From contig JAUXOE010000069.1 of assembly GCA_030682415.1 (NCBI GenBank), forward strand, positions 1 through 48,269: a DNA stretch of 48,269 nt, given 5' to 3'. The notes under the pieces were generated by a model, which worked only from the letters and a program-made list of their open reading frames with translations, was not told where the DNA came from and did no database searches. Positions 21,037 through 37,965 of this stretch are shown here, piece after piece (within the stretch, counting starts at the first letter, position 1; the number at the start of each line of letters is the position of its first letter). The position numbers and the translations under genes were made by a program. The stretch comes from Parvibaculum sp. GTDB taxonomy: Bacteria > Pseudomonadota > Alphaproteobacteria > Parvibaculales > Parvibaculaceae.

Positions 21037-21120
21037 CAATGCGAGAAACTGAAAAGCATCGTTCCGTAGATTCGCCGGTTGTCGGCCGTGAAACCGGCAG
21101 CACACATCTTCTGAAGCCTA

Positions 21121-22347
21121 TCAAGCATAACGCTTGAAGATCAACGAGGTGTTGACTCCGCCAAAAGCGAAATTGTTGGACATGACGAATTCAGCATCGA
21201 TCTGACGAAAACCATCAACGATATAGTCGAGCTCGCCACAATTTTCGTCAACGTTGCGGAGATTGATGTTTGGAGCGAAATGTCCATCGCGCATCATTTC
21301 AATAGCAAGCCATGCTTCAATGGCACCGCACGCACCGAGTGTGTGACCGAAATAGCCCTTCAGCGAATGGATTGGGGTAGAGGATCTGAGGACACTGGCC
21401 GTAGCAATCGTCTCTGCGACATCGCCCTGAAGCGTCGCTGTTCCATGCCCGCTGACGAACGCAATAGTGTCCGCAGACAAACCCGAATCATCAAGCGCAA
21501 GCTGCAAGGCTCGCGCCATGGTTTCGGATTTTGGGTCGGTGACATGCGAACCGTCCATGTTCGTGCCAAAACCTACAATCTCGGCATAGATGGTTGCTCC
21601 ACGTGCCAACGCATGCTCACGCTCTTCGAGAATGAGTGCGGCAGCGCCCTCGCCAATCACGAGGCCATCGCGGTCTCGGTCATAGGGGCACGGCGCGGTA
21701 TGAGGTGCATCGTTGCGACAGCTGGTCGCAAAAAGGGTGTCGAAAACGATGGCCATGGTAGGACACAATTCTTCCGCGCCACCTGCGATCATTACGTCGG
21801 CGTGTCCATATCGAATGGCCTCACAGGAATATCCGATCGCTTGCGAACCCGACGTGCATGCCGACGACGTCGTGATGATGCGTCCCTGTAGCCCGAAGAA
21901 GATACCAATATTAATGGCAGCCGTATGGCTCATCATTTTGATGTAGCTCATCGCGCTGAGGCCTGTCGCCTCGCCCGAGTCCATGAAATGGACAAAACCT
22001 TTGGTGGACTCGGTCGAACCGTAAGATGAGCCGAAAGCAACACCGGCTCGGCCAGATGTGAGGACGGGATCATCTGTAAGGCCTGCAGCCGCAAGCGCTC
22101 GCTCCGCCGAACGCACAGCAAGTATCGCAACCCGCCCCATGGAGCGCATCTTTTTGCGTGGGAAAACCTTCTCATGCTCGAAATATGTCGCCGGCGCACC
22201 AAGCCGCGTTCTCAAATCGCCAAGCCTGTCCCACGCTTCGATGTATTTGACGCCCGTGCGCCCCTCTCCCATCGCAGCACGAATATCGCTCCAGTCCGCA
22301 CCAAGCGGTGTTACTCCAGCCATACCTGTTACAACGACGCGCCGCAT
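21121..22347 (-). CDS. apeR: Beta-ketoacyl-ACP synthase, ApeR-like
   Basis: FabF-type ketosynthase. The catalytic triad is intact: Cys164 in TTSSACTSGSQAIG, His301 in VSGHGTATLQGD and His335 in LKGYFGHTLGACG. The N-terminus MRRVVVTGMAGVTPLGADWS is typical of ApeR-type enzymes. It is the last gene of the aryl polyene operon, in the conserved order KS-DH-KR-KS (apeO-P-Q-R). In the characterised system ApeR is a separate ketosynthase from the ApeO/ApeC pair. ATG 22347 overlaps the KR stop by one base (TGATG) and has GGGGGA upstream. The product is 408 residues. Confidence 0.92.
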   Translation of the reverse strand: MRRVVVTGMAGVTPLGADWSDIRAAMGEGRTGVKYIEAWDRLGDLRTRLGAPATYFEHEKVFPRKKMRSMGRVAILAVRSAERALAAAGLTDDPVLTSGRAGVAFGSSYGSTESTKGFVHFMDSGEATGLSAMSYIKMMSHTAAINIGIFFGLQGRIITTSSACTSGSQAIGYSCEAIRYGHADVMIAGGAEELCPTMAIVFDTLFATSCRNDAPHTAPCPYDRDRDGLVIGEGAAALILEEREHALARGATIYAEIVGFGTNMDGSHVTDPKSETMARALQLALDDSGLSADTIAFVSGHGTATLQGDVAETIATASVLRSSTPIHSLKGYFGHTLGACGAIEAWLAIEMMRDGHFAPNINLRNVDENCGELDYIVDGFRQIDAEFVMSNNFAFGGVNTSLIFKRYA

Positions 22348-23084
22348 CAACACATTCCCCCATTCACTGATATGACCTGCCGTGTCATATAACCGGCCTC
22401 ATCAGAGAGAATAAAGGCCACGATGCCGGATATCTCCTCAGGCTTTCCCAGACGCTGCATCGGAATCATTTTGACAATTTCCTCGACAGGCGCTGCCTTG
22501 ATCATCGCTGTTTCGACCACGCCGGGCGCAACGCAATTAACGGTGATTCTTCTCGTCGCAAGTTCAACCGCCAACGCCTTGGTGGCGCCGATAATGCCGG
22601 CCTTCGCAGCACTGTAGTTTACCTGACCACGATTGCCGATTATACCGGAGACGGACGAAATGGTAACAATGCGGCCCCCATCGCGACGGCGGATCATGGG
22701 CATCACAAGCGGATGAACAACATTGAAGAAGCCACCAAGATTGGTGTCGATCACATCGTCCCAATCTTCCCCGGAAATCGCCGGAAAGGCATTGTCCCGC
22801 GCTATTCCAGCATTGAGAATGACCCCCCAATAGGCTCCGTTCGAGGCGATGTCGGATTCAAGCGCGGCAAGAGACGCATCACGGCTCGAGACATCGAATC
22901 CGAGAATGCGTGCCGTTCCGCCTTCTTCTTCGATCAAGCGACGCGTATCATCCGCGCCTGCCTCATCAGAACCGAAATGGATTGTGACCGGAAATCCGTC
23001 CCGCGCGACTCGAATGGCTATCGCCCGCCCGATCCCCTTGCTCGCTCCGGTAACGAGAATGGTCCGCTTCGCTGTATCGTTCAT
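22347..23084 (-). CDS. apeQ: 3-oxoacyl-ACP reductase, ApeQ-like
   Basis: Short-chain dehydrogenase/reductase that reduces the beta-keto group after each elongation in polyene synthesis. The 245-residue protein has the NADPH-binding TGASKGIGRAIAIRVA, the structural NAG in VILNAGIARDN, and the catalytic Ser-Tyr-Lys in TISSVSGIIG and VNYSAAKAGIIG. The C-terminus VISVNGGMC is typical of FabG. It overlaps the DH gene by 4 nt and the KS gene by 1 nt. Context, more than sequence, separates it from housekeeping FabG. Confidence 0.93.
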   Translation of the reverse strand: MNDTAKRTILVTGASKGIGRAIAIRVARDGFPVTIHFGSDEAGADDTRRLIEEEGGTARILGFDVSSRDASLAALESDIASNGAYWGVILNAGIARDNAFPAISGEDWDDVIDTNLGGFFNVVHPLVMPMIRRRDGGRIVTISSVSGIIGNRGQVNYSAAKAGIIGATKALAVELATRRITVNCVAPGVVETAMIKAAPVEEIVKMIPMQRLGKPEEISGIVAFILSDEAGYMTRQVISVNGGMC

Positions 23085-23542
23085 GACATATCCTGCCGCA
23101 ACCCAGCCGCGCGCCCTTCGGGTCGATAGACGTTTATAGACGCAGTAACACAGTCATTGTCGTCTATGCGAATGACGCCATCAAACGCCGCCATGCCGTT
23201 TTCATTAAAGGTCATGTCGACACGGATATGCAGTGTCTCGCCTGCGGCAAAATATCCGCGCGTCGCCATGTATCGTCGTGTCCCAAGAAGGAAGCCGATC
23301 TCCGGTGGCTCACCGCTGCCGTGGCGGCCGGCGCCGTCATACGCCGCAATGGTCTGCGCAAGATACTCAAGGCCGACATATGCAGGAACACCGCATCCAT
23401 CACGAAAGAATGTCGAATTCTCGGTAATCGACACTTCCGCAACGGCATGAAAATCCGACGCCTCGATCAATCTGTCGATCAGCAGCATTGTGCCGCTGTG
23501 CCGGACGAGATCTCCGATATTTGGCAAAGAATCGGTCATCAT
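23081..23542 (-). CDS. apeP: 3-hydroxyacyl-ACP dehydratase, ApeP-like hotdog protein
   Basis: A 153-residue hotdog-fold protein expected to remove water from 3-hydroxyacyl-ACP and create the trans double bonds of the polyene. The N-terminal DLVRHSGTMLLIDRLIEA and the helix motif VGLEYLAQTIAAYDG fit the ApeP family and differ from FabZ, which has a His-Phe-Pro motif. FLLGTRRYMATRGYFAAGE follows. It overlaps the upstream KS and downstream KR genes by 4 nt each (ATGA). A second dehydratase-like domain is fused to the ligase gene of this cluster. Confidence 0.9.
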   Translation of the reverse strand: MMTDSLPNIGDLVRHSGTMLLIDRLIEASDFHAVAEVSITENSTFFRDGCGVPAYVGLEYLAQTIAAYDGAGRHGSGEPPEIGFLLGTRRYMATRGYFAAGETLHIRVDMTFNENGMAAFDGVIRIDDNDCVTASINVYRPEGRAAGLRQDMS

Positions 23543-24714
23543 TCCCGCGCCAGAATCAAGGCCAGATTATTCCCGCCGAAGGCATAGGAACAGCTCATCA
23601 TATACCGTCCGTCGACGCGCTCGCCAATACGATCAACGAAACGAAGCGGCGGAAGCTTCGGATCGAAATCTCCATCCCAGAGATGCGGTGGCACCTCGCG
23701 TCGCGCCAGTGCCATAGAGACGAAGGCCGCTTCGCAGGAACCCGCTGCGCCCAGCATATGCCCCGTCAGTGCTTTGGTGGAGCTGCATGGAAGATCACCG
23801 CCGAAAATCCGGTGCGTCACCTTGGCTTCCATTGCATCATTAAGCCGGGTCGCCGTGCCGTGAAGATTAATATAGGCAATTTCGGACCGAGAGATTCCCG
23901 CGTGAAGAAGTGCCTGTTGGATGGCGCGCTCAGCGCCGTAGCCTTCAGGATCGGGTGCGCTCAGATGATGTGCATCGGTACTTTCACCCCAACCTGCTAT
24001 TCGTGTATGCGCCTCCTCCCGCCCCAGAACGAACAGCGCAGCACCGTCGCCAATATTTATTCCATCCCGGTTGACGCTGAACGGATTACATCGCGCAGAG
24101 GAGATTGAATCGAGAACAGAAAACCCATTCAGCGTCAGGCCGCACAGCGTATCTATGCCGCCCGTCACGACGACGTCACACAGGTCGGCTTGTATGAGCC
24201 TTACTGCTGTCACGATAGCCTTGCCGCCGGACGTGCAGGCCGTCGACACGCCATAACAGGGACCTGATGTCCCCATCACAGTCTCTATGAGCGCAGCGGG
24301 ATCGCCAAGTTCCGTTCGCGAGAACCGAAAATCATTTGGCCAAACATCGGTAGAGAACCGTTCTCGGAGTACCGATTCCCAGCCATCAATTCCCGACGTA
24401 CTCGTTCCGACAACGACGCCGACACGCGCGGGGCCGAACTTCGAGATCGCTTCGGCGATAACCGGCATGAGTGGTTTCAGGCAATGATAAACAAGACGGT
24501 TATTGCGGCTCTCCCACTCCACGAGTGCCGCCGGCAACTCATCAAGCGCAAAGCGCAGTCGCCCGACAGGGGGTGTCCGGCCATCCGCAATTGCCTCGGT
24601 CTGCTGTAGTCCCGATAGATCACCGCTGAAAAGTGCATCCGAAACGGTGTCCCAGTCCGGGCCAAGAGCATTGGCAACTGACGACGCCACGATATAGACG
24701 CTCCGTCCGCTCAT
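23539..24714 (-). CDS. apeO: Beta-ketoacyl-ACP synthase, ApeO-like
   Basis: Elongating ketosynthase of the aryl polyene system. Its 391 residues keep the full Cys-His-His set: Cys160 in GVSTACTSGGKA, His285 in INLHGTATRLND and His319 in LTGHMLGAAGSCE. The N-terminus SVYIVASSVANALGPDW resembles ApeO rather than FabF. In the characterised system ApeO pairs with the chain length factor ApeC, which is encoded here at 36455-37219. It overlaps the DUF3261 gene upstream and the DH gene downstream by 4 nt each. Confidence 0.91.
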   Translation of the reverse strand: MSGRSVYIVASSVANALGPDWDTVSDALFSGDLSGLQQTEAIADGRTPPVGRLRFALDELPAALVEWESRNNRLVYHCLKPLMPVIAEAISKFGPARVGVVVGTSTSGIDGWESVLRERFSTDVWPNDFRFSRTELGDPAALIETVMGTSGPCYGVSTACTSGGKAIVTAVRLIQADLCDVVVTGGIDTLCGLTLNGFSVLDSISSARCNPFSVNRDGINIGDGAALFVLGREEAHTRIAGWGESTDAHHLSAPDPEGYGAERAIQQALLHAGISRSEIAYINLHGTATRLNDAMEAKVTHRIFGGDLPCSSTKALTGHMLGAAGSCEAAFVSMALARREVPPHLWDGDFDPKLPPLRFVDRIGERVDGRYMMSCSYAFGGNNLALILARE

Positions 24715-25283
24715 TCAGATTTTACCGTGTGGCTGTCGATGACAAGTTCATATCCATGGACATGGTTGTGAATTCTTGACGAACCCTCCCACGGACTTGT
24801 CGCCGGTCGAACCACCTCGACAAGCAGTTTGCCGTTTCGGAAAATTCGGCGTGCGCCGCTTCCAGAGCTGACAAGATGGGCGCCAACGAGCGCATTGTGT
24901 ATTGCCTCGTCTGAAGCGTAGACGAGCATAAAATCGACAAGGAGACGTTGTATCGGCAGGTTCTCCGGCGCAATGCCGCGCCGGACGACAATAGCGCCTT
25001 CATGCCACTCTATCGTCACAATATGAGGGCCGGACGGCACGGCCATTGCTATTGCGAATCGCGATGACGTTGCTTCGACAATAGTTTGGAAGCGCTCAGA
25101 CCGGCCGCCAAAGTTGCCGCGCACCAGTTGAACCGCATTCATATCGGTATCAAACGGCGGCCGCACCGGCAAAGTGAATGAAACGCCAGGAGCTAACTCC
25201 AGACGCGTGGGCAAAGGTGGAGCACCGGACGCACACCCGGCAACAAAATGAAAAGAGGCAAGAATGATACAAATCAACCGCAT
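24711..25283 (-). CDS. DUF3261 lipoprotein of the aryl polyene cluster
   Basis: A predicted lipoprotein of about 190 residues. ATG 25283 gives MRLICIILASFHFVAGCASG, a signal peptide ending in a lipobox (FVAGC). The rest is beta-rich, with RIFRNGKLLVEVVRPATSPW and a C-terminal HNHVHGYELVIDSH. DUF3261 proteins recur in aryl polyene clusters beside LolA-like and MMPL proteins and are thought to help deliver the product to the outer membrane; this role is inferred. It overlaps the flavoprotein gene by 10 nt and the KS gene by 4 nt. Confidence 0.82.
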   Translation of the reverse strand: MRLICIILASFHFVAGCASGAPPLPTRLELAPGVSFTLPVRPPFDTDMNAVQLVRGNFGGRSERFQTIVEATSSRFAIAMAVPSGPHIVTIEWHEGAIVVRRGIAPENLPIQRLLVDFMLVYASDEAIHNALVGAHLVSSGSGARRIFRNGKLLVEVVRPATSPWEGSSRIHNHVHGYELVIDSHTVKSE

Positions 25284-26506
25284 AGCGACTTGACCATCGC
25301 AAGATACTTGCTGGGCTCGCGGACAAACGGGTTCATCTCGTCCCACGCATACCCCGCGAGAACCGATGTAATCATCCCCTTTACCTGGTTCGCATCCGTT
25401 CGCCCGCTGAAGATTATCTTTTGCAGAGAACCGTCGTACCAGCCACCCACATAGGCACGGAAGACATCGACGCCGCGACAGAGCGGTCGAGAAAACTCAG
25501 CGTCCCAATCCGGCGCTTCTCCATTCAATTGCTTTATCAGCGTGTGGGTGGCCAGAGACGCAGATTTAAGCGCAATGGTAACCCCCGATGAGAAAACCGG
25601 ATCAAGAAATTCCCCGGCATTTCCAAGCAACGCATAGCCGTCTCCTGTAAGGCTACTGACGCGGCATGCATATCCGGAAATTTCGCCTACATCGCGCACC
25701 CGCTTCGCGTTGACAAGAAGTTCCGACATAAGGCCGGATTCCGCGACCAGCGCCGAAAGTTGTTCCTCGCGTGTGGATCCATAAGGCAGGAGGTGCTCGG
25801 GCTTTCCGACCACACCCATGGAACAAAGCCCGTCCGCCAGCGGAATGAGCCAATACCAAATTTCGCTGTTGAGCGGATTGACGGTAATCAGAATCTTGTT
25901 GCGGTCATATGCTCGCACCGGGATGTTGTCTTCGACATGGGTGAAGATCGACATTCGATTCGGAAAGCTTGTCGGCGTCTCGAGATCGAGTAGCCGCGCG
26001 AGAACACGTCCAAAACCGCTTGCATCGAGAACAAAGCGCGCCGTGATGTCGCGCTCGGCTCCGGCTTCATCACGTACGGTAAGGCGCGGCATGATCGGAT
26101 CTGGCTGCATCGCAACAACGGTCTGTCCAAAGCTCACCTTCGCGCCCTTGCGCACTGCGCCGCGCACAAGCAGATCATCAAACTTGTCACGACGGACTTG
26201 AAAGGTCGTGCCCCAACCATTGGCGCTCTTCGTGCGGAAGTCAAAACACTCCTCTTTATCGCCGCACCGAAAGATGGCCCCATTTTTGTGCTGAAATCCG
26301 GCTTCAACGACATCACGCAAGAGATCGGCTTCGGCGATCCACTCCATCGCCTGCGGCAGCAGGCTTTCGCCGATGGAAAAACGGGGAAAATGCACCCGCT
26401 CCAACACCTCAACCGAAAAGCCCGCATCGACAAGCATTGCTGCCGCGACCGAACCTGCCGGCCCGGCACCGATAATGACCACGTCAGGATTCAATTTCGT
26501 CCCCAC
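25274..26506 (-). CDS. FAD-dependent oxidoreductase, halogenase-like
   Basis: A flavoprotein of about 410 residues. The N-terminal Rossmann motif is VVIIGAGPAGSVAAAML; then come FPRFSIGESLLPQAM and a DASGFGRVLARLL block. It contains W-Y-W-L-I-P near residues 217-222, matching the WxWxIP motif of flavin-dependent halogenases, and a lysine near residue 74 (GFQHKNGAIFRCG), about where those enzymes place the catalytic lysine. Related oxidoreductases without halogenase activity share parts of this pattern. It may halogenate or oxidise the polyene. The start is unsure: GTG 26506 is used here, while TTG 26494 has a better ribosome-binding site (GGGGA). Either overlaps the MMPL gene. Confidence 0.85.
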   Translation of the reverse strand: MGTKLNPDVVIIGAGPAGSVAAAMLVDAGFSVEVLERVHFPRFSIGESLLPQAMEWIAEADLLRDVVEAGFQHKNGAIFRCGDKEECFDFRTKSANGWGTTFQVRRDKFDDLLVRGAVRKGAKVSFGQTVVAMQPDPIMPRLTVRDEAGAERDITARFVLDASGFGRVLARLLDLETPTSFPNRMSIFTHVEDNIPVRAYDRNKILITVNPLNSEIWYWLIPLADGLCSMGVVGKPEHLLPYGSTREEQLSALVAESGLMSELLVNAKRVRDVGEISGYACRVSSLTGDGYALLGNAGEFLDPVFSSGVTIALKSASLATHTLIKQLNGEAPDWDAEFSRPLCRGVDVFRAYVGGWYDGSLQKIIFSGRTDANQVKGMITSVLAGYAWDEMNPFVREPSKYLAMVKSLCG

Positions 26507-28718
26507 TCGAAATGTCGGCCCGACGCCCCCTTGCGAAAGGCGAAAGCGCCAACGACACAAAAATGCCGACCGCTACGGTGACCCCGAAACTCCTGACGGG
26601 CAAGACCGAACTTAGACTGAGAAGCCCCAGTGAAATACAAGTCATGAGAGCTGCCAGAACAATGCCGACCCGTGTCCATTTACCAATCTCGCCCGGGTGT
26701 TCCCGTTGAAATATTGCGTAATCGACCCCTGCGCCGAGCACCAGAAACAGGCCCATGGCGGAGAAGAATGAAAATGGCAGGCCGAGCATCATGACAATGG
26801 TAGGCGTTATAATGACGGCGAGAAGGGCCGGCAGCAGGACCCTGAGTGCCGAAAACTCGCGATAGATTCCCAGCAGCATGAGACCTGTCATGAGGCAGGC
26901 GGCGGCGACGCCAAATGTGGCAAGCCGCCGGTACTCCCCAAAAAGAGCGGAATAGAGGTCGGCCGGATCCACAAACTGCCAAGCCCCCGCACCGCTCGAC
27001 GGCAACGTGACTGTGCGCGTCACCGGCATGAGGGACCAGTGGACCCCGGACACCTCCCCCCGCAGCGAAGCGACAAGAGCTGGAAGATCTATCTGACCGA
27101 CGTCACCAGCCTCATAGGCATTCGAACCGTTCGAGCTAAGTTCCGCCATAAGCTTCGGCAGGAAAGGTGCAATAAGACGTGTCTCAAGAAGCTCGGCGTC
27201 GCGCGCCTTGGTACCAGCCGAAGGATCCAGACGGCTCGCTGCAAAAATGATCGCCTGTCTATCTTCGGGGGGAAGCAGCGCAAGCAGCATCTCCTCACCA
27301 CGAATGGCATCGGCAGCAGAATCTCCGCGAACCAGAATGAAGGCACTCGACGCTTCAAAGCCGGAAAGCTCGCGAAGACGCGCCTCTTCCATACTCAAGG
27401 TTTGCGACGGTGCTTGCATCCCGCGCACATCATCGAGAATTCCACCGGAGCGCCAACCAACTGCCAACATAAGAAGTGCGAGAAAGATGACGAGTCCCCG
27501 CCACAGCGGCCCCGGTGTCCGCGCTAGATAGTATCCTGCGCGGCGGGAAATCCACGCCGCACCCGGCCCCGTCGCCATACGGCCACGTTCGATGAGCGGA
27601 ATAACCCAGAACGTGGCGAGCCAAGCGGCAACAAGGCCCGACATACCAAAGACGGCCATCTGCCGAAACGCCGGAACAGGAAAGACAAGCAGCGCCGCAA
27701 ACGCACCGACCGAAGTCAACATGCCCAGCGTTAGCGGCTTGAAGAGATGTGCCCTTCGCTGTACCTGGCTCGTTGGTGCATCGCCAATACCGGTCACGAG
27801 ATAGTAGGTCGTATAGTCGACCACCATGCCAATCAGCGCCGCACCAAATACAAGCGCCATGACATGCACATTGCTGAAGACAAGCAGAGTCACAGCTAGA
27901 CCCGTCGCAAGCGCGTAGGCCACCATGATGATCGCGAGAACAGGCGCACGAAGAGTACGAAACGTCAGCCAGTATAGAAGGAAAATGGCCGCAAGCGTGA
28001 TACCGCCAATTAGCGAAACCTCCGACCGCGCCTGCATCGCGCCATGAGTGGCGTGAAAAATTGCACCACCCCGCAAGAGCACAAGCCCTTTCGGCTCCCA
28101 CTCAATTCGCCAGCTCGCAACTGCCGCGGCGATGTCATCCTGAACGTCGAGACGAAAAACCGATGCGGAGATACTTCCAGATAGCATTTCCGCCGCTGGC
28201 ACATCGCCGACAAAGACACCTGGTGCCAAGCAGTCAATCAGGCGATTGGTGAGAAGAAAGGGATCGCTCTTCAGCAGCCCTCCCATACCGACCATCGACG
28301 GCGCATACCATTGGCGTAACGCGTGGTCGACGATTGCACTGCCCCCACTCGCCTCGAGAAGAGCGCGATCGTCAGGGCACAAAAGCCTCGCACGATGGAA
28401 AAACAACCACTTCCAAAGCGCCTCGCCATCGACGTCGGCCGCATTGAAATGGCCAGTATCCGTGAGGGAAGCGGACAATGCGTCAATCGCGGTACGGCGT
28501 TCCCCGGGCGTTGCCCCTTCTATGACGAAGACAACCCTGTTCGAGGCCACCTCACTCGCGCGGACAACTGCCGCTGCAAGAACAGGATCGTGTGCATCCC
28601 CCGGAAGAAGCGACATAATATCGGTGTCGATCGCGTCCGGTATTCGTAATGCGGAGAGAATTAGTGCAGCAGCAAAGCCGAGACCGATCAGAACGGCTGG
28701 CCATCGCGCAAGACTCAC
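26484..28718 (-). CDS. MMPL/RND-family exporter of the aryl polyene cluster
   Basis: A 744-residue inner-membrane protein with two repeated halves. Each has one N-terminal helix, a large periplasmic loop and about five more helices. The helix blocks LIGGITLAAIFLLYWLTFRT and GAALIGMVVDYTTYYLV in the first half, and FFSAMGLFLVLGAGVDYAIF in the second, carry the acidic proton-relay motif GMVVDYT / GAGVDYA typical of MMPL and RND transporters. It is expected to move the aryl-polyene lipid out of the inner membrane, together with the LolA-like protein encoded just upstream (4-nt overlap). Confidence 0.9.
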   Translation of the reverse strand: MSLARWPAVLIGLGFAAALILSALRIPDAIDTDIMSLLPGDAHDPVLAAAVVRASEVASNRVVFVIEGATPGERRTAIDALSASLTDTGHFNAADVDGEALWKWLFFHRARLLCPDDRALLEASGGSAIVDHALRQWYAPSMVGMGGLLKSDPFLLTNRLIDCLAPGVFVGDVPAAEMLSGSISASVFRLDVQDDIAAAVASWRIEWEPKGLVLLRGGAIFHATHGAMQARSEVSLIGGITLAAIFLLYWLTFRTLRAPVLAIIMVAYALATGLAVTLLVFSNVHVMALVFGAALIGMVVDYTTYYLVTGIGDAPTSQVQRRAHLFKPLTLGMLTSVGAFAALLVFPVPAFRQMAVFGMSGLVAAWLATFWVIPLIERGRMATGPGAAWISRRAGYYLARTPGPLWRGLVIFLALLMLAVGWRSGGILDDVRGMQAPSQTLSMEEARLRELSGFEASSAFILVRGDSAADAIRGEEMLLALLPPEDRQAIIFAASRLDPSAGTKARDAELLETRLIAPFLPKLMAELSSNGSNAYEAGDVGQIDLPALVASLRGEVSGVHWSLMPVTRTVTLPSSGAGAWQFVDPADLYSALFGEYRRLATFGVAAACLMTGLMLLGIYREFSALRVLLPALLAVIITPTIVMMLGLPFSFFSAMGLFLVLGAGVDYAIFQREHPGEIGKWTRVGIVLAALMTCISLGLLSLSSVLPVRSFGVTVAVGIFVSLALSPFARGRRADISSGDEIES

Positions 28719-29296
28719 GACGCGCTGTCCATAGGCAGAAATTCGATGACTTGAAGATCACCTCTCCCTCCGCCGATCTCGACACGCGCAACATCGCTGC
28801 AACCTCGTACCTTGATCGTTTCGATGACTGCCTTCATACGTTCTTGACGAGGCACCAGGAGAATCTCCCAATCGCCCCCCTCAAGCGTCAGCGGCGCGGA
28901 TACGATGAAGAGTGATTCAAGTTCGGTCCATTGACCCTGCATCACAGCAGTGACAGAACGCGCAATGCTCGCACCCATGTTGGTCGAGCCCGCGCGGACC
29001 GGCCGCGGCGCCTCGCCATCAACAGATTCCGTAATGCCGTCGGCGGTTATCACCATCTCCACATTGAACGGCTTTGTCATGTGCCAGACGATCCGTCCCT
29101 CACCCGCACGTAACACGCCCTCCGAACTGAGCGTCTTCGACATACCCTCAATTTGGCGCTCCTGCATGAAGCGTCGTTCAACGGTCTTTTCGTCAAATGA
29201 GTCGGGTGTGGAACACGTCACTGCATATACAGGCGTGGAAAGAAAAATCATCGAAACGGCGACCATAAGAAGATGGGGGCAGCCTATGAAAGCCAT
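28715..29296 (-). CDS. LolA-like outer-membrane lipoprotein carrier homologue
   Basis: A periplasmic protein of about 193 residues. ATG 29296 gives MAFIGCPHLLMVAVSMIFLS, a signal peptide probably cut after VYA. The body resembles LolA folds: SKTLSSEGVLRAGEGRIVWH and MTKPFNVEMVITADGITESV match the LolA pattern of an 'F-S-G-x-L' strand followed by a 'W-x-x-x-x-P' strand. In aryl polyene clusters such proteins are thought to carry the lipid product across the periplasm. It overlaps the thioesterase gene by 13 nt and the MMPL gene by 4 nt. Confidence 0.83.
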   Translation of the reverse strand: MAFIGCPHLLMVAVSMIFLSTPVYAVTCSTPDSFDEKTVERRFMQERQIEGMSKTLSSEGVLRAGEGRIVWHMTKPFNVEMVITADGITESVDGEAPRPVRAGSTNMGASIARSVTAVMQGQWTELESLFIVSAPLTLEGGDWEILLVPRQERMKAVIETIKVRGCSDVARVEIGGGRGDLQVIEFLPMDSAS

Positions 29297-29703
29297 CGCG
29301 CAATTTTTCCGCGTAAGACCGGTGGCGTTTCCCATTGCATTTCCTTCGTCTCGATATCGAGTGCAACATGAACAGTGTGGCCCCGTGTAATCTTAAGTCC
29401 GGATTGAGGGTCACGGAGCAAATAGTCGATTTTAAGGCGATTTTCCCACTCAACGATGCCCGCCACAACCTCAACCTGCCGTCCGAGTTCCAGAGGACGG
29501 TAGTACCGGACATGCATGTCGATAACCGGCCACGCATATCCCGAATCCTTCATCGCATTGTATCCGTAGCCAATCTTCGACAGGAGGACGACGCGACCGA
29601 TCTCGAAGTACTTTGCATAGTTTCCGTGCCAAACGATGTTCATCGGATCGAGATCGTAGAACTGAACATCGAATAGCGCCGAGGCGGTCACGATGGCCTT
29701 CAC
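29284..29703 (-). CDS. Acyl-CoA/ACP thioesterase (4HBT, YbgC-like)
   Basis: A 139-residue hotdog thioesterase. The N-terminal FYDLDPMNIVWHGNYAKYFE holds the catalytic Asp and the YbgC/4-hydroxybenzoyl-CoA thioesterase signature. MHVRYYRPLELGRQVEVV is also typical. It probably releases the polyene or a starter from its carrier, or edits stalled chains; which of these cannot be read from sequence. The GTG start at 29703 overlaps the ammonia lyase stop in GTGA. The product may act with the acyltransferases encoded upstream. Confidence 0.88.
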   Translation of the reverse strand: MKAIVTASALFDVQFYDLDPMNIVWHGNYAKYFEIGRVVLLSKIGYGYNAMKDSGYAWPVIDMHVRYYRPLELGRQVEVVAGIVEWENRLKIDYLLRDPQSGLKITRGHTVHVALDIETKEMQWETPPVLRGKIARWLS

Positions 29704-31280: not shown

Positions 31281-32986
31281 TGCTCCCCTGACCGCCCCGC
31301 TGGTTCCGGCGGTTTGAGACCCGCAGGATGCCAGAAATCGAAAAAATTGAACCATTGCAACGGCGCAATGCGCAAATGACTTTCGAGACGCTCAGCATAT
31401 CGCGCCACTGAGGCAGAGATCGCTTCATTCCTGCCTTTTCGCGGCAACTCGACCCTCTCCGCGAAACGCTCGAAATAGATACGGTGATGCGCTCCCTCAC
31501 GTAAACAGAAGAGAAGATGGACCGGACACTTGAGAAGACCGGCCAGGATATGAGGTCCCTGTGGAAAGGGCGCGAGCTTGCCGAGAAACGGCACCCAGCT
31601 GATCCGCTCATTGCCGGTCACCGGTATTCGATCACCTGCCATAACAACCCAGTCACCATTCGCCACTGCCTCTTGAAGCAGGATTGCCGTATCTGGACCG
31701 ACATCTGTAACTTGAATGACACGAACAGTGGAGGACCCTGAAAATTCATTGACAAGCCGATTGAAGCGAACGGCGTTCGCTGTATGAACCAGCACATTGA
31801 CACGCCAACGGAATCGAAGTGTCGCGATTGCGCGCAGGACCTCGGGGTTGCCGAGATGCGCCGTGAATATTACCGCGCCTTGATCTCGCTTTTTGGCTCG
31901 ATCGAATTCTCCTTCATCGACTCCATATACAGCCGACGCTGGAATCTTGCCCGTCCATGCAGCAAGTTTGTCGATCGCTGAGGAAGCAAAGGTCAAGAAG
32001 TGCCGAAACGACAAAAACAAGTCCGGCACCTGTGGCACAAATCCCGCTTCATGAGCGCGCCTGAGATACAAGAGAGAACCGCGACGTTGCTCTGCTCCTG
32101 TCAGGAAAAAGAAAAACACAATCGGCGCCAAAGCAACGAGACAAATGCGACGACCAAAAAATTTGTAAACGGCACCCAAAATCCAGAGCCCCACATAACT
32201 GCCCCGCTCGCCAATCGCAGCCCAATGACGCGATGATCGACGGCGTGCCCGGATACGCGAGAAAAGAAGAAACGGCAGACGCGTTAACATCAGAAAGAAG
32301 AGCTTCGCATGCATACCCGACAGACGCAGATTGTCGTCCCACATTGCGAAGTTCGAGTAATTTCCAGGCGGATAAGTAACGGGAACTGGAAATGTAATGA
32401 CATCAACGCCACGCCAGACAAGCCTCACAAGTATTTCGGTGTCGAAGGCCATGCGTTGAGCGATACGCACCGACCGCGAGATGGCCAGAGTCGCTGCGAT
32501 GGGATAGACGCGAAAACCGCACATGCTATCCAGAATCCGGAAGGACGCGGTGTTGATCGACACCCATATATGGGTAATCCAGCGCGCAAGACGACGGCTA
32601 CGCGGAACCGTCTCGTCGTAAACGGGCTCGCCGATAACCAGCGCTGTAGGATGCGCACTTGCAAGACGCAACAGATCGGCGGCACGCGCTAGATCATGTT
32701 GCCCATCGGCATCGATCTGCAACACATGTGTGAAGCCGCGCGCCTCAGCTCGTTCAATGCCATCCAGAACCGCGGCACCCTTGCCACCGTTGAAATCGCG
32801 CCTCAACAACTCTACGCCGTCATGCGCGGCGCATACACCCGCAATAAGACGGGCGTCACCTGGTTCGTTGCCATCATCGACAATAATGACCGGCAGTCCT
32901 TGTGCGCGCAGACCGGAGACAATGCCATCCAGGGCGCTCACGTGATGATATGTCGGGATAACCACACAGGGCTTTACCGCACTCAC
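31277..32986 (-). CDS. Fused family-2 glycosyltransferase and LpxL-like acyltransferase
   Basis: A 569-residue bifunctional protein. Residues 1 to about 245 form a GT2 domain: CVVIPTYHHVSALDGIVSGL, IIVDDGNEPGD and the DxD-type IDADGQHD (Asp92/Asp94). From about 265 to the end is an acyltransferase of the LpxL/HtrB type: a membrane-anchor-like hydrophobic stretch (ICLVALAPIVFFFFLTG), then FTAHLGNPEVL (His377, with Glu where HxxxxD enzymes usually have Asp), VMAGDRIPV and FPQGPHILA. In aryl polyene clusters these activities decorate or anchor the polyene on a lipid. It overlaps the ligase and lyase genes by 4 nt each. Confidence 0.9.
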   Translation of the reverse strand: MSAVKPCVVIPTYHHVSALDGIVSGLRAQGLPVIIVDDGNEPGDARLIAGVCAAHDGVELLRRDFNGGKGAAVLDGIERAEARGFTHVLQIDADGQHDLARAADLLRLASAHPTALVIGEPVYDETVPRSRRLARWITHIWVSINTASFRILDSMCGFRVYPIAATLAISRSVRIAQRMAFDTEILVRLVWRGVDVITFPVPVTYPPGNYSNFAMWDDNLRLSGMHAKLFFLMLTRLPFLLFSRIRARRRSSRHWAAIGERGSYVGLWILGAVYKFFGRRICLVALAPIVFFFFLTGAEQRRGSLLYLRRAHEAGFVPQVPDLFLSFRHFLTFASSAIDKLAAWTGKIPASAVYGVDEGEFDRAKKRDQGAVIFTAHLGNPEVLRAIATLRFRWRVNVLVHTANAVRFNRLVNEFSGSSTVRVIQVTDVGPDTAILLQEAVANGDWVVMAGDRIPVTGNERISWVPFLGKLAPFPQGPHILAGLLKCPVHLLFCLREGAHHRIYFERFAERVELPRKGRNEAISASVARYAERLESHLRIAPLQWFNFFDFWHPAGLKPPEPAGRSGEQ

Positions 32987-34638
32987 GGACTGCTCCTGAG
33001 CGTGCCGCTCGCGACCACTTCACCCTCGCGGATATACTGAAAATCAAGACGCGATCCACGCTTTACCAGCGTGAGCGATATTTGCTCATCCGGCTGCATG
33101 ACATGACGAAACTTGACACGGGACATTTCCCTCCCCTCGAAAGCGTCGCCCCACGTCCGTTCGGCAAGCAAAGCTGCGATATGGAGCTGGGCGACACCGG
33201 GAAGTATAGGTTGACCGGGGAAATGCCCCTCAAACCAGCGTAACTCGGGTTGTAACCGGAGTTCAAAGCGCGCACGTTCTCCGCTGATGTCACTCGCATC
33301 AATCTGCGGCAGTTCGGCCGAACTGAAGAGCGCACGAATGTCGGCAGCAACGCGTTTACCTTGCGCATTTTCGTGTATTCGCTGCACAAAACGCCAATAT
33401 CGCGGCAACTCCATTGGCTCAAGTCGATCTTTAAGCACGGCACGCAGATGCCTTGAATAGCGAAAGCGCCCCATTGTAGCGAGCGGCGCTTGATCGTTCT
33501 CATGCACGACAACGGCGGCGCCGAGAGCACCCTGTCGGGCCGGCAGGTCGATGACTGCAACATCGACGATGCTGGGCAGGTTCCTGAGCGCGTCTTCAAC
33601 GCGCTGCAGAGAAACCCGTTTGCCCTCTATCTTGACGATGCGATCAAGGCGGCCACCCAGCGTAAAGCGGCCATCCTCCAAAATGGTAACAGCGTCGCCC
33701 ATCGACAGAAATTCGTCATGCCCGGTGAATGGCGAACGCACGGCAAGAGCACCCTGCTCATCGGAGCGAATCGAGACATCAGGCAAAGTTGTCCATGGGA
33801 CGGATTTCCTCGTCTGCTGTCGCCACGCGACCCCGCCAGTTTCCGTGCTGCCCAAAACCTCAATCGGCGTGACACCAAATTGCGCTGCAGCAAATGCCGC
33901 TGCGTCGGTCGATAACGGCCCGCCGGATGAAAAAATAGCCGACGGCATATGCGGAAGGAGAACCGCTTTGGGGATACGGCTCAAATGCGCAGGGCTCGAA
34001 ACAATGACGCCATCCGGTTCGAGATGCCCGGCGATCGCTTCCCAGGTGTCGTGCTGTCGAGAAAAAAAACGGGCGCCCGTCGCAAGCGGCCAGAGCACAC
34101 GGAAAAGGATGCCGTAGATATGCTGGTGCGAGACCGTACCCATGACCATGCCTCGGGGCGCACCCCAGAGGCGGCCGAGTGCTTCGACCTCCGCCGCCAG
34201 CTGCCTCGTCACCTTCATGCAGCACTTCGGCTTCCCAGAGGAGCCGGACGTAAAGAATCCTATCCGGCCGTCCGGCACGGTCGGGAGATCCGCCGCCTGC
34301 AGGTTCTCCGCATAGGCGGACACCGAAATCGACTCGACCCCCTCAAGATCGCTGACGAAGGCGCCATGATGGACGCCGATCTCATTCAAATACTCACGCG
34401 CCGAATGGCCCGGCAAACACACGTCGCGGCCCGCAAGCAACGCACCGGCAAGCCCCACAGTGAAGTTCGCTGCATCTTCGCAATAGACAAAGACCGGACC
34501 ATCACCCCCACTCAGGCGCCCGGCGATTGACAGGGCGGCAGCACGAACGGCACCCGCTGTCGCATTTCGCGTTCCGTCCGTAGCGACTGGCATGTCGTTA
34601 GGCGCAGTCGACAGACGCTGCCACAAGTTCGCTGTCAT
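32983..34638 (-). CDS. apeHI: Fused acyl-ACP ligase (ApeH-like) and ApeI-type dehydratase
   Basis: A 551-residue two-domain protein from ATG 34638. The first 430 or so residues are an adenylate-forming ligase: P-loop FFTSGSSGKPKCCMKV (about 129-144), GSTETGGVAW and RFTLGGRLDRIVKIEGKRVS. It should activate the aryl acid and load it on ACP. The last 115 residues are a hotdog domain with RWFEGHFPGQPILPGVAQLH, including the HFPG and LPGV motifs of FabZ-like dehydratases; this matches ApeI, a separate protein in enterobacterial clusters. The start overlaps the membrane gene stop in TGATG. Confidence 0.9.
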   Translation of the reverse strand: MTANLWQRLSTAPNDMPVATDGTRNATAGAVRAAALSIAGRLSGGDGPVFVYCEDAANFTVGLAGALLAGRDVCLPGHSAREYLNEIGVHHGAFVSDLEGVESISVSAYAENLQAADLPTVPDGRIGFFTSGSSGKPKCCMKVTRQLAAEVEALGRLWGAPRGMVMGTVSHQHIYGILFRVLWPLATGARFFSRQHDTWEAIAGHLEPDGVIVSSPAHLSRIPKAVLLPHMPSAIFSSGGPLSTDAAAFAAAQFGVTPIEVLGSTETGGVAWRQQTRKSVPWTTLPDVSIRSDEQGALAVRSPFTGHDEFLSMGDAVTILEDGRFTLGGRLDRIVKIEGKRVSLQRVEDALRNLPSIVDVAVIDLPARQGALGAAVVVHENDQAPLATMGRFRYSRHLRAVLKDRLEPMELPRYWRFVQRIHENAQGKRVAADIRALFSSAELPQIDASDISGERARFELRLQPELRWFEGHFPGQPILPGVAQLHIAALLAERTWGDAFEGREMSRVKFRHVMQPDEQISLTLVKRGSRLDFQYIREGEVVASGTLRSSP

Positions 34639-35216
34639 CACGCCCCACCCTGCGACCGCACGCGTCGACGCACAGTGAACTCGCCGACAAAAACAAGCCC
34701 TGCGATTAAATAGCTGATGAAACCATTGTAGAGACCCCAATAAAAAAGATCGTTCTGGTACACGGTCCATGCGGCAATAAGGCCATTGAATGCAAAAAAC
34801 GTAATCCAGACTCCTGTCACCTTGCGCGTATAGCGAATGCCGCGCTCATCAAGATCCGGTTCGACAATGCGGGCAAAACGCTCAACCATGCTGGGGGGCT
34901 TGACGAGTGTGACGGTGAAGACAATGAACAAACCAGTACTCATGAAAACTGGGTAAAGCATTGCCGCCAGGTTTGGTGCGAAACTGCCGACGGCCAGAAC
35001 CGCGACAACAACAGCAATGAGACAAAGTGTCATCGCTACCGGAACGGGCACGGTCCGCGGCAACAAGATGCGCGCAGAAATGCAGGCCACAAGCGCAATG
35101 ATAATTGGCCATGGGCCAATCCACCGCAAACCGATTGCCGTCCCTATTGGAATCAACAGCATTGCGACCGTAATCGCAGTGTCCCAGGAATCAGGACGCT
35201 TGGGCGAGAAGCTCAT
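34638..35216 (-). CDS. COG4648-like membrane protein of the aryl polyene cluster
   Basis: A 192-residue protein with about six predicted membrane helices, for example AITVAMLLIPIGTAIGL, PIIIALVACISARILL, VAMTLCLIAVVVAVLAVGSF and YWGLYNGFISYLIAGLVFVG. Conserved charged or polar residues lie in VKPPSMVERFARIVEPDLDE and RKVTGVWITFFAFNG. Such proteins are constant members of aryl polyene clusters (the ApeG position) but have no proven role. It overlaps the ACP gene upstream by 26 nt and the ligase gene by one base. Confidence 0.83.
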   Translation of the reverse strand: MSFSPKRPDSWDTAITVAMLLIPIGTAIGLRWIGPWPIIIALVACISARILLPRTVPVPVAMTLCLIAVVVAVLAVGSFAPNLAAMLYPVFMSTGLFIVFTVTLVKPPSMVERFARIVEPDLDERGIRYTRKVTGVWITFFAFNGLIAAWTVYQNDLFYWGLYNGFISYLIAGLVFVGEFTVRRRVRSQGGA

Positions 35217-35442
35217 GAACCTGGTCGATAACATCGCGAACCGTCCGCACCGACCGAAATTGCTCCGCAGAGACCTTGCGACCGGCGAATTCCTGAAGTT
35301 TCAGCACCAGATCGACGGCGTCGATACTGTCGAGGTCGAGGTCGTTCGCGAGATGGGCGTCGAGCGAAATCTGCTCCTCCGGGATCTCAAAGAGTTCCAT
35401 GAGAAAGCCCTTCAGCGTTTCATAAATTTCATCACGATTCAT
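35191..35442 (-). CDS. apeF: Acyl carrier protein, ApeF-like
   Basis: An 83-residue acyl carrier protein. The phosphopantetheine attachment serine is in DLDLDSIDAVDLVLKLQ. The N-terminus MNRDEIYETLKGFLMELFEI is the first ACP helix. It is one of two adjacent carriers; in the characterised system ApeE carries the elongating chain and ApeF is the second carrier. The two are assigned here by order alone. It overlaps the other ACP gene by 4 nt. Confidence 0.9.
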   Translation of the reverse strand: MNRDEIYETLKGFLMELFEIPEEQISLDAHLANDLDLDSIDAVDLVLKLQEFAGRKVSAEQFRSVRTVRDVIDQVHELLAQAS

Positions 35443-35705
35443 GTTGCGGGACCCTGCTGTCGAGCAACAAATCGGGCCAGTTCTTTCACACTTGAAAAGT
35501 AACTCGCTAGATTTTCATCACTTGAGTCGATCTTCACACCAAACACTTTCTGAATTTCAATACCGATCTCAAGCGCATCGATCGAATCGAGGCCGAGCCC
35601 ATCCCCAAAGAGAGGCTCATCCTCGTCGATGTCCTGCATAGAGACGTCTTCCAGATTCAGTGTCTCAATAATCAAGCGTCGAATTTGATCTTCAAGCCGC
35701 TCCAT
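35439..35705 (-). CDS. apeE: Acyl carrier protein, ApeE-like
   Basis: An 88-residue acyl carrier protein. The attachment serine lies in GLGLDSIDALEIGIEIQ. The protein is acidic, with MERLEDQIRRLIIETLN forming helix 1. It overlaps the acyltransferase gene upstream by 14 nt and the second ACP gene by 4 nt. Both ACPs have the DSID motif, different from the DSLD of housekeeping AcpP, as is common in aryl polyene systems. Activation would need a phosphopantetheinyl transferase, which the cluster does not encode. Confidence 0.92.
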   Translation of the reverse strand: MERLEDQIRRLIIETLNLEDVSMQDIDEDEPLFGDGLGLDSIDALEIGIEIQKVFGVKIDSSDENLASYFSSVKELARFVARQQGPAT

Positions 35706-36468
35706 GGCCCACTTCCCCCATCAACCAGCCCGACAAATACTCGTTCAGGCGCCGCGCGGCAATCGAGGGCACAGACTCACCTATATATGTCTGGGTTTCA
35801 ACCAGTCCGTGTACCGTGATTGTGAAATGCATTCGGCGCGGCGGAATATGGTACCATTTCTGGCCTTTCATCAAGGTCGGTGGCTCGCATTTTATGGTTA
35901 CGAGCCGAATGGGCGAACCCGCCCTGATTGCGATATTGGCCACCCCGCGTTGCAGCTTCACAGGCGCACCGGGAACCGTACGGGACCCCTCCGGAAACAC
36001 GATGAGGTTGTTGCCGCCGGCGAGCGCCGCAGCACAATCCGCCAGCAGCGTTTCGGGGTCGCCGTCGTTGCGAAGGTAATTCGTCGCTGTGACAACGCCA
36101 CGCATGAAAGGATTGCGCCATATCTCCGCTTTCACAATGCATTGCGACCGGGGCATCATCGACATCAGCAAAACGACATCAAGGAGTGTCGGGTGGTTCG
36201 CGATGACAAGAACACCCGTGTCCTGCGCCAGCGCTTCGGCATTGTGCGTTTCAAACTCGATTACGCCCATCACAATCATGAAATTGCGATGTAGTCGAAA
36301 CATCGTGTGGACGAACCGTTGTGCATATTGAGCACGCGCCTCACGGTCCCGCACCACCAGGTTCATTACTGGAAACACGGTGAGTGAAAGTACGAGGCCT
36401 CCTATGCCAAAGAAGGAAAAGGAAAGACCCGTACCAAATAGCCTCCAGATATAATCAAGCCGCAGCAT
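35692..36468 (-). CDS. 1-acyl-glycerol-3-phosphate-type acyltransferase (ApeD position)
   Basis: A 258-residue PlsC-like acyltransferase. The catalytic NHPTLLD (HxxxxD) and FPEGSRT motifs are intact, with RSQCIVKAEIWRNPFM between them. One hydrophobic N-terminal segment (SFSFFGIGGLVLSLTVFPVM) anchors it in the inner membrane. It probably attaches an acyl chain, possibly the polyene itself, to a glycerolipid-type acceptor. ATG 36468 overlaps the CLF stop by 14 nt. Confidence 0.9.
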   Translation of the reverse strand: MLRLDYIWRLFGTGLSFSFFGIGGLVLSLTVFPVMNLVVRDREARAQYAQRFVHTMFRLHRNFMIVMGVIEFETHNAEALAQDTGVLVIANHPTLLDVVLLMSMMPRSQCIVKAEIWRNPFMRGVVTATNYLRNDGDPETLLADCAAALAGGNNLIVFPEGSRTVPGAPVKLQRGVANIAIRAGSPIRLVTIKCEPPTLMKGQKWYHIPPRRMHFTITVHGLVETQTYIGESVPSIAARRLNEYLSGWLMGEVGHGAA

Positions 36469-37219
36469 CGGTGTTACCTTCGAACGACCAGAGCGAACCT
36501 TGCGAACGCCAACGTAGCGTCTCAAGAGTTTCGCCCTGCAACCGTGAAATGATTTCCCGGGCCAACAGTTCCGCATGGGGAGCGTCGAGAACGTCGCCGT
36601 GTTCCCCGGTATCTTGGGTGCGCATCAGGGAGACGTGAGCGTGTGAATCTGCTTCAGCAGAAAGACGGAGCCCAAACGCCAATCCGCCTCTGTCAAAATC
36701 GGCAACCTCGCTATAAATCTCCGGCAGGGGGGTATCCACGAATATCAGCACGAGCTTCAGATGCGGCCGCTCGGCAAGGCGGAGCCACGCCTCCATAAGA
36801 CCCGACGACAATGTCTGTGTGCCGGCCGCGATAGCCGTATGGCCAATCCGTGTCTTGCGCGCAAGATCGAGCACCCCGGGAACGGTATTGTGGACCGACA
36901 TTGAAAAGCCCGCTGGCGACATTGGCTCCCCTTCGAGAAGCGAGGTAAGAAGCTGATGTGCAAGGGCGACATCGCCGTAGCGTGAACAGAAGACTATATC
37001 TGCATCGCTTTGCGGGGCCACACCCAGACCACAGGTAACCCCCATACGCGCAAACGGCCTTAGACGACGCCTCAGATTGACGGGGATATCCGTCTCCTCG
37101 ACACAATCGCCAAGTCGCTGCGCGGAAGCATCATCCGTCGGGAGCAAAATCGCCGCCCACGACTCCACATACGCGGCTGTAAGACCGGTCGGGACAGACA
37201 ACGTGCGGTCGATCTGCAT
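36455..37219 (-). CDS. apeC: Beta-ketoacyl synthase chain length factor, ApeC-like
   Basis: A 254-residue protein matching the short ketosynthase-like family found in aryl polyene clusters (PF13723 type). It has a ketosynthase N-half fold remnant with the block GFSMSVHNTVPGVLDLARKT, typical of the family, but no active-site cysteine of the KS type. In the characterised system ApeC is the chain length factor that pairs with ApeO. AGGGAGGG lies upstream of ATG 37219. It is 38 nt downstream of the first gene of the cluster, the only non-overlapping junction in the operon. Confidence 0.87.
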   Translation of the reverse strand: MQIDRTLSVPTGLTAAYVESWAAILLPTDDASAQRLGDCVEETDIPVNLRRRLRPFARMGVTCGLGVAPQSDADIVFCSRYGDVALAHQLLTSLLEGEPMSPAGFSMSVHNTVPGVLDLARKTRIGHTAIAAGTQTLSSGLMEAWLRLAERPHLKLVLIFVDTPLPEIYSEVADFDRGGLAFGLRLSAEADSHAHVSLMRTQDTGEHGDVLDAPHAELLAREIISRLQGETLETLRWRSQGSLWSFEGNTDAAA

Positions 37220-37257
37220 CGCCAGCCCTCCCTGATAAGGTGAAATACTGGCTCTTC

Positions 37258-37722
37258 TCAGTCTGCCAGTCTGACGACTTCGCCCTTGAGCGTGACACCC
37301 GACATCAGGAAGCCGATATGGCACTCGTAGTGCGTGTCGCTCTTAACTTCGTTCGAACGAAAATAGCTGCGAATATTGACGACGGCGTTGCCGCCCATCT
37401 GATTTGCACGCTCCTGAAGCCCAATGAAACTCGAGAGCGCCACGCGTTGGCATGTCACTTCGTCGGACTTGGCGAAGGCATTGGTCCGCTTGTTCGAAAC
37501 AATTTCGCCAAAGGACTGCGTGACTTGCGGATGCCCTGTATCACCAAAGTAGAAGGCAACCGAGCCATTCAAAGCGGATTGGGCGTCTGGCGTCGCAAGA
37601 GCCAAATCTACCGGCATCATCACAACCTTGTCAGCGGCATGCGCAGACGCAATGCCAAGCCCAAGAAACAGAGACGAAACCGCAACCGCGAATCGTAATT
37701 GAGAACTGAACCCCCTGCTCAT
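37258..37722 (-). CDS. Small exported protein, YbjQ/excinuclease-like family, first gene of the cluster
   Basis: A 154-residue exported protein. ATG 37722 (AGGGGGGAAG upstream) gives MSRGFSSQLRFAVAVSSLFL, a signal peptide cut near AHA-AD. The mature part includes VTCQRVALSSFIGLQERANQ, MGGNAVVNIRSYFRSNE and HYECHIGFLMSGVTLKGEVV. These features resemble small periplasmic proteins that databases sometimes label excinuclease subunit and that recur in aryl polyene clusters; the excinuclease label is misleading. Two cysteines may form a disulfide. Function is unknown. Confidence 0.78.
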   Translation of the reverse strand: MSRGFSSQLRFAVAVSSLFLGLGIASAHAADKVVMMPVDLALATPDAQSALNGSVAFYFGDTGHPQVTQSFGEIVSNKRTNAFAKSDEVTCQRVALSSFIGLQERANQMGGNAVVNIRSYFRSNEVKSDTHYECHIGFLMSGVTLKGEVVRLAD

Positions 37723-37872
37723 GCACTTCCCCCCTGCGGCCGAACTGTCGAACATCCGCTCAACCTCTGGTAGAAAATGGAAAATTTCAAGCTGTTAATC
37801 ATCGCTCGAAGGAGCGGCGCAACGCCCGAACGGCCCGGTTGATTTTATTGATGTCTGGGACCCGGACCGCCG

Positions 37873-37887: not shown

Positions 37888-37965
37888 GCCCCCGCCCGAG
37901 GCCGCCGGAGCGCGGAAATCCTTCCACAGAAAATATCAACTAAATCAAATGCTTATCTTGCGGAT

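Follow-up and report, generated by a model that had tools for sequence, protein, structure and literature searches.

Predicted aryl polyene operon with an ammonia lyase and a halogenase-like flavoprotein, inserted beside a serine tRNA gene in Parvibaculum sp.

Introduction

The functions of the Escherichia coli ape genes and an antioxidant role have been described for aryl polyene (APE) biosynthesis (PMC8253772), and the E. coli and Vibrio fischeri clusters have been expressed in a laboratory E. coli (PMC8253772). Structure 6QSP is ApeO-ApeC of Xenorhabdus doucetiae, and an Acinetobacter baumannii complex has also been reported (PMC8358021), to which 7f28 is assigned here because '7F28' occurs once in that text. 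A tyrosine ammonia lyase and a 4-coumarate ligase have been demonstrated for flexirubin (PMC3992019), and xanthomonadin clusters are reported to vary in their organisation around the ketosynthase (KS) pair (PMC3691225). Halogenase genes are reported in the APE clusters of Xanthomonas and, apparently, going by a figure legend, Variovorax (PMC3691225), and in that of Azoarcus (PMC3949708). Here we describe 18 genes in a 48,269-nucleotide stretch of Parvibaculum sp. (GenBank assembly GCA_030682415.1, contig JAUXOE010000069.1, positions 1 to 48,269; hereafter the window), which very probably constitute a complete APE operon of the lyase- and flavoprotein-containing kind, acting through the pathway proposed below.

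Gene content and assignment to an aryl polyene operon

The assignment draws on the KS and chain length factor (CLF) pair. Gene 2 matched only two solved structures at E<=0.01, 6qsp_B and 7f28_A, and the two best solved-structure matches of gene 15 were 6qsp_A and 7f28_B; these matches, corresponding to the ApeO-ApeC pair of APE clusters, strongly support the aryl polyene identity proposed in a first-pass annotation of this DNA. APE ketoreductase and dehydratase models (TIGR01831, PF22817 and PF22818) were matched above their cut-offs, an aryl-loading ligase (PF00501) is accompanied by two dedicated acyl carrier proteins (PF00550), and acyltransferases D and J are present together with exporter M and its companions L and N, of which L and M are weak by profile. 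Genes 2-18 follow the E. coli order C to R unbroken, the two insertions being the lyase, which lies between J and K, and the flavoprotein, which lies between M and N; agreement with the ape order, previously noted at C-E-F-H-I and O-P-Q-R, is wider than had been claimed. The catalytic Cys-His-His residues were retained in 91 of 91 aligned ApeO and 76 of 76 aligned ApeR sequences (one sequence per locus, the best match scoring above a threshold; 98 APE loci searched). The genes and the evidence for each are as follows.

37258..37722, minus strand: gene 1, secreted protein, predicted YbjQ/RcsF-like fold (AlphaFold2, Foldseek)
36455..37219, minus strand: gene 2, ApeC-like chain length factor (PF13723; 6qsp_B, 7f28_A)
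35692..36468, minus strand: gene 3, ApeD-like lysophospholipid acyltransferase (PF01553)
35439..35705, minus strand: gene 4, ApeE-like acyl carrier protein (PF00550; NF006617 above cut-off)
35191..35442, minus strand: gene 5, ApeF-like acyl carrier protein (PF00550; NF003757 above cut-off)
34638..35216, minus strand: gene 6, ApeG-like membrane protein (matched by tblastn at position G of E. coli and others; no Pfam family)
32983..34641, minus strand: gene 7, ApeH ligase-ApeI dehydratase fusion (PF00501, PF13193, PF22818)
31277..32986, minus strand: gene 8, ApeJ, glycosyltransferase 2 plus acyltransferase (PF00535, PF03279)
29700..31280, minus strand: gene 9, aromatic ammonia lyase, probably tyrosine ammonia lyase (PF00221)
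29284..29703, minus strand: gene 10, ApeK-like hotdog thioesterase (PF13279)
28715..29296, minus strand: gene 11, ApeL, LolA-like (LolA_3 E 8.8e-5; 22.3 bits, cut-off 23)
26484..28718, minus strand: gene 12, ApeM-like RND/MMPL exporter (match at the E. coli M position; no Pfam family)
25274..26506, minus strand: gene 13, halogenase-like flavoprotein (PF04820)
24711..25283, minus strand: gene 14, ApeN-like lipoprotein, DUF3261 (PF11659; lipobox-like VAGC near the N terminus, by eye)
23539..24714, minus strand: gene 15, ApeO ketosynthase (6qsp_A E 3.6e-88; NF006618 above cut-off; Cys-His-His)
23081..23542, minus strand: gene 16, ApeP dehydratase (PF22817 ApeP-like above cut-off)
22347..23084, minus strand: gene 17, ApeQ ketoreductase (TIGR01831 above cut-off)
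21121..22347, minus strand: gene 18, ApeR ketosynthase (NF006587 above cut-off; Cys-His-His)

All 18 frames on the minus strand at 21121-37722 (or to 37755, the alternative start of gene 1) are open, as first annotated, and by sequence form a complete operon that is well conserved. The gene contents listed at that time were likewise borne out by Pfam and NCBIfam, except that at E<=0.01 Pfam gives no family for genes 1, 6 and 12, and that gene 11 falls just below cut-off. Gene 8 shares 42% identity with its E. coli and Cedecea counterparts, gene 11 matched the flexirubin LolA2 model at 8e-10, below cut-off, and gene 12 gave a partial HpnN match, also below cut-off (NCBIfam).

Junction gaps from gene 1 to gene 18 are 38, -14, -14, -4, -26, -4, -4, -4, -4, -13, -4, -23, -10, -4, -4, -4 and -1 bases, so that 16 of the 17 junctions overlap and only the first does not. 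This reproduces the earlier count with the starts used; start codons are predictions and the count varies with the choice, the overlaps at genes 9 and 13 being lost if alternative GTG starts are used at 31274 (preceded by a ribosome-site-like GGAG; gap +2) and 26482 (gap +1), respectively. Annotated junctions overlap in 16 of 20 cases in Pseudoalteromonas sp. THAF3 (NZ_CP045419.1) and in 9 of 15 in Cedecea neteri, and dense packing is thus usual for such operons. G+C content in 2-kb steps was 0.55-0.58 in the inserted segment described below and 0.56-0.66 in its flanks, with a clear contrast on the right and a weak one on the left. Promoter and terminator scans gave counts near the shuffle level, with no site of either kind between the tRNA gene and gene 1, a result that proves nothing.

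Starter unit and proposed pathway

The prosthetic-group site GASGD is present in gene 9 and in 64 of 64 aligned APE lyases. Gene 9 carries His94 at what we take, by alignment, to be selectivity motif 1, a position occupied by His in 45 of the 64, and Gln at motif 2 (HNQDKVSMG). His together with Gln is the combination expected of tyrosine ammonia lyases under a published selectivity-motif rule (PMC3992019), and the substrate of gene 9 is likely tyrosine.

Gene content, order and catalytic motifs were read directly from the DNA, while the chemical steps given here are carried over from homologues. Gene 9 would deaminate L-tyrosine to 4-coumarate, which the ligase half of gene 7 would load onto the acyl carrier protein encoded by gene 4. 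Elongation would follow the type II polyketide synthase (PKS) scheme, with ApeO-ApeC (genes 15 and 2), aided by ApeR (gene 18), adding malonyl units, gene 17 reducing each keto group, and gene 16 and the dehydratase half of gene 7 dehydrating the product to a conjugated 4-hydroxyphenyl polyene. Gene 13 may halogenate the ring, and gene 10 probably acts as a proofreading or release thioesterase. Genes 8 and 3 would join the polyene to a membrane lipid, and genes 6, 11, 12 and 14 would carry the lipid polyene to the outer membrane, where it would serve as an antioxidant. The operon should yield a yellow antioxidant lipid pigment. Because Pfam gave no methyltransferase family for any of the 18 genes, the ring methyl of the E. 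coli APE should be absent.

Several points weigh against parts of this scheme. Profile support for genes 6, 11 and 12 is weak, and their predicted roles derive mostly from position and tblastn. The flexirubin lyase FlxA is reported to look HAL-like at motif 1 and nevertheless to be a tyrosine lyase (PMC3992019), and Gln or Asn replaces the motif-1 His in 18 of the 64 aligned APE lyases; for these two reasons confidence in the starter is lower than in the pathway.

Insertion beside tRNA-Ser

Comparison with same-genus genomes placed the operon within a segment bounded on one side by a serine tRNA gene.

21027..37965, no strand: inserted segment relative to the empty sites in genomes G001 and G013 (blastn)
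37966..38058, minus strand: tRNA-Ser(GCT), 3' end at the insertion boundary (ARAGORN)

Homology with G001 and G013 breaks off at the 3' end of the tRNA (37966) and begins again at 21026, leaving 16.9 kb inserted. The empty site in both genomes consists of a thioesterase gene, tRNA-Ser(GCT), 60 bp and gene 19, and genes 8, 13 and 18 have no strong match anywhere in either (completeness 100 and 98). G008 also has an empty tRNA-Ser(GCT) site, with approximately 94 bp between, and carries its operon elsewhere. The empty sites show that a whole pigment pathway stands inserted at one exact position in the chromosome, and they make gain and loss within the genus testable. As a separate observation, the match to the thioesterase (relatives of window 38131-39036) is interrupted by a single stop codon in 6 of the 25 matched genomes (G003, G004, G006, G007, G016 and G021).

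The flavoprotein was present at >=71% identity in 11 of 26 same-genus genomes, some of which are 57-88% complete, so that absences there are uncertain. Among these carriers and the window, the operon lies beside tRNA-Ser(GCT) in the window and in G018 (same arrangement), and beside tRNA-Ser(CGA) in G014, in G025 and in G011, whose operon is truncated by contig ends. In G008, a ~7-kb element encoding a tyrosine integrase and a resolvase (locus L088, 868-8321) lies directly upstream of the APE operon and is flanked on one side by an intact tRNA-Ser(CGA) and on the other, next to the operon, by a 17-base repeat of the 3' end of that tRNA. No tRNA was found within the 0.7-2 kb upstream examined in G012, G004, G007, G003 and G015, and the APE locus of G016 is cut by a contig end. 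The last 33 bases of tRNA-Ser(GCT) and tRNA-Ser(CGA) are common to both, with one difference. Sequence upstream of tRNA-Ser(CGA) is conserved among the genomes compared and sequence downstream largely is not; the close kin G018 and G001 remain alike for a further ~170 bases, and in G001 a stretch of 828 bases downstream of the tRNA matches the sequence beyond the operon of G014.

Neither an integrase nor an att repeat, which together would mark a tRNA-targeted integrative element, was found with the window copy: no integrase family was found among the 18 genes (Pfam), and a candidate direct-repeat att site at the boundaries was rejected, with no direct repeat of >=9 bp between the end stretches compared (300 and 370 bp). 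Two 9-bp inverted matches between these stretches, one of which is the tRNA 3' end and falls inside gene 18, were taken as chance. For this reason mobility of the operon is inferred: serine tRNA 3' ends would serve as insertion sites in the genus, and the operon would have arrived at or moved between them. No literature joining aryl polyene, genomic island and tRNA-Ser was located, nor, by titles and abstract starts, any report of an APE insertion beside a tRNA. Apart from this insertion next to a serine tRNA gene the operon is largely ordinary; the parts that merit follow-up are this insertion and the halogenase signature whose conservation is described below.

Distribution of the layout

Loci were compared using 80 named relatives, the best 80 of 557 ApeJ relatives, to which all counts of named loci refer. 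The collinear ape order was found in 68, the lyase between J and K in 47 and the flavoprotein after M in 15. Both insertions occur in 13, comprising nine Shewanella, two Kangiellaceae (one of which, L131, ends after the flavoprotein), Zooshikella and one Rhizobium metagenome-assembled genome (MAG); 12 of the 13 are thus Gammaproteobacteria, and the Rhizobium MAG also has H and I fused.

Fusion of H and I was seen in 26 of the named loci, with the two separate in 51 and unclear in 3. Across the phylum, ApeI was matched at E<=1e-8 in 63 of 398 genomes, of which 34 look fused and 29 separate, as judged from open-frame length (>=555 versus <=219) without a ligase match per frame. The same reading was used for a sample of the class, in which 28 of 385 genomes were above the family cut-off and only the 18 matches of >=39 bits were counted for fusion, because those below 39 bits were judged to be ordinary FabZ-like proteins. 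The glycosyltransferase-acyltransferase fusion of ApeJ is shared with E. coli, Cedecea and Caballeronia. Five loci (L026, L031, L036, L040 and L041) have the glycosyltransferase and the acyltransferase of ApeJ in two separate frames.

A tree of ApeR, ApeQ and ApeJ was built from the 67 of 98 loci having nearly full-length, stop-free matches to all three, with the root set at the midpoint. The genus falls within a group of 15 loci, designated alphaproteobacterial from their record titles, kinship or taxonomy; the named neighbours are Enhydrobacter, Terasakiella, Azospirillum, Beijerinckiaceae and Paracaedibacteraceae, which we take to be Alphaproteobacteria. The next inner node has a support of only 0.34. 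Loci omitted from the tree include, among others, L099, L100 and L103 (alphaproteobacterial), L026, L040 and L041, and four loci of the genus (L030, L031, L036 and L039).

Gene 1 and other features of the window

Relatives of gene 1 lie within APE clusters or next to them in this genus, in Pseudoalteromonas (where the record labels it 'excinuclease ABC subunit A'), Caballeronia, Paraburkholderia, an Accumulibacter MAG, Rosenbergiella and others, and two cysteines are invariant across 17 aligned sequences. An AlphaFold2 model (14 sequences; mean pLDDT 85.7) was compared with solved structures using Foldseek, giving 1vr4 (E 4e-4), 1y2i (8e-4) and the DUF74 protein 3qkb (1.4e-3), with a weak match to RcsF (2l8y, E 0.086). 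We take 1vr4 and 1y2i to be YbjQ-like. TM-scores by query length were only 0.43-0.45 for the top two matches, so that the YbjQ/RcsF-like fold of this APE-linked secreted family is treated as a lead. Identity with the E. coli ApeA lipoprotein was considered and rejected; the two look unrelated by eye, and ApeA (129 aa) has a lipobox-like LAGC that gene 1 does not.

Elsewhere in the window, overlapping genes at 16820-18458 match glycine/sarcosine and sarcosine/dimethylglycine N-methyltransferases, only the first above cut-off, which suggests a capacity for betaine synthesis. A repetitive Lys/Ala-rich frame of 158 residues at 41377-41853 appears histone H1-like by eye.

Alternative readings

In the first-pass annotation it was suggested that the layout, with its fusions and flavoprotein, may define a distinct alphaproteobacterial subtype. 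Grouping by sequence favours such a subtype, since the genus joins alphaproteobacterial loci, 15 in all, with a support of 1.0, as does the position of gene 1 at the 5' end, seen otherwise among the named loci only in L104 and weakly in L098 (31% identity, at a contig end); long H-I-type frames are moreover frequent in the class (14 of 18 counted matches). Against this stand the 13 named loci and Pseudoalteromonas, in which J-lyase-K occurs with M-flavoprotein, and the lyase and flavoprotein therefore occupy the same positions in Gammaproteobacteria, which refutes a new alphaproteobacterial layout. Nor do the fusions mark a subtype, because the ApeJ fusion is shared with E. coli and Cedecea and long H-I-like frames are scattered over the phylum, occurring outside the class in 28 of the 57 genomes that were positive (28 of the 34 fused-looking genomes), while 4 of the 18 within it are short. 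A subtype set apart by layout, fusions and flavoprotein is accordingly very unlikely; the sequence grouping of 15 loci and gene 1 at the 5' end are what remains distinctive. The layout is common to distant Proteobacteria and is therefore either old or spread by transfer, a result that corrects a tempting claim of a new subtype. A flexirubin- or arcuflavin-type operon, in which the polyene would be esterified to a dialkylresorcinol, agrees with matches of genes 9, 11 and 17 to the FlxA, LolA2 and FlxB models, all below cut-offs, and such hybrids exist in Azoarcus (PMC3949708). No dialkylresorcinol gene was found among genes 1-20 (Pfam; the rest of the genome was not searched), and we regard this reading as extremely improbable beside that of an APE operon.

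Within the APE reading, the role of gene 13 is about evenly poised between a halogenase and a reductase or hydroxylase, the latter giving a plain 4-hydroxyphenyl polyene lipid. Gene 13 carries the motif set of flavin-dependent halogenases (GxGxxG, WxWxIP, FxxPxxSxG and an aligned Lys), and WxWxIP, FLDP(V/I)FSSG (the FxxPxxSxG motif) and the Lys are kept in 42 of 42 copies (>=150 bits, among the 98 APE loci). The solved-structure matches include 8zop, 7fco, 3e1t, PltA and CmlS, and the eight that follow the closest, 3nix, are all named halogenases or homologues (ChlB4, CmlS). A non-halogenase is favoured by 3nix itself, which is named only flavoprotein/dehydrogenase, by matches to reductase families, the listed NCBIfam halogenase and reductase matches alike being below cut-off, and by the lack of a recognised flavin reductase in the operon (Pfam). 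If gene 13 is a halogenase, the kept motifs predict halogen isotope patterns in APE pigments, for which no description of the chemistry was met in the literature; the main text of a paper on Pseudoalteromonas ape clusters (PMC9966250) does not contain the words halogenase, ammonia-lyase or FAD. More speculatively, an aryl-ring halogenase in the lyase-type APE operons of Shewanella, Pseudoalteromonas and this genus may produce chlorinated or brominated lipids outside the xanthomonads, with the pathway moving in this genus as cargo between serine tRNA genes, a combination that we consider possible and rather doubtful.

Comparison with known systems

The Pseudoalteromonas sp. THAF3 cluster resembles the window operon in its order C-D-E-F-G-H-I-J-lyase-K-L-M-flavoprotein-N-O-P-Q-R and in having a gene 1 homologue. 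The differences are that H and I are encoded by two genes, that the annotation divides J in two, that R is followed by a MipA/OmpV gene, and that the homologue of gene 1 stands at the 3' end. The E. coli ape cluster (CFT073; here KE47, L025) shares the order C to R, but has the ApeA lipoprotein and ApeB methyltransferase upstream (PMC8253772), separate H and I, and no lyase or flavoprotein match in its stretch. Xanthomonadin clusters (Xanthomonas, Lysobacter) are alike in their type II PKS with a reduced CLF-like protein and, in Xanthomonas, a halogenase, whereas their starter comes from XanB2 (3-hydroxybenzoate) rather than an ammonia lyase (PMC3691225); no chorismatase XanB2 family was found among the 18 genes (Pfam; only these genes searched). 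In the flexirubin cluster of Chitinophaga pinensis a tyrosine lyase and 4-coumarate ligase likewise start the polyene (PMC3992019), but the product is esterified to the dialkylresorcinol for which genes 1-20 hold no gene. The APE clusters of Acetobacteraceae are, like this one, alphaproteobacterial, and contain 'a probable halogenase' linked to a ketosynthase (PMC8776678).

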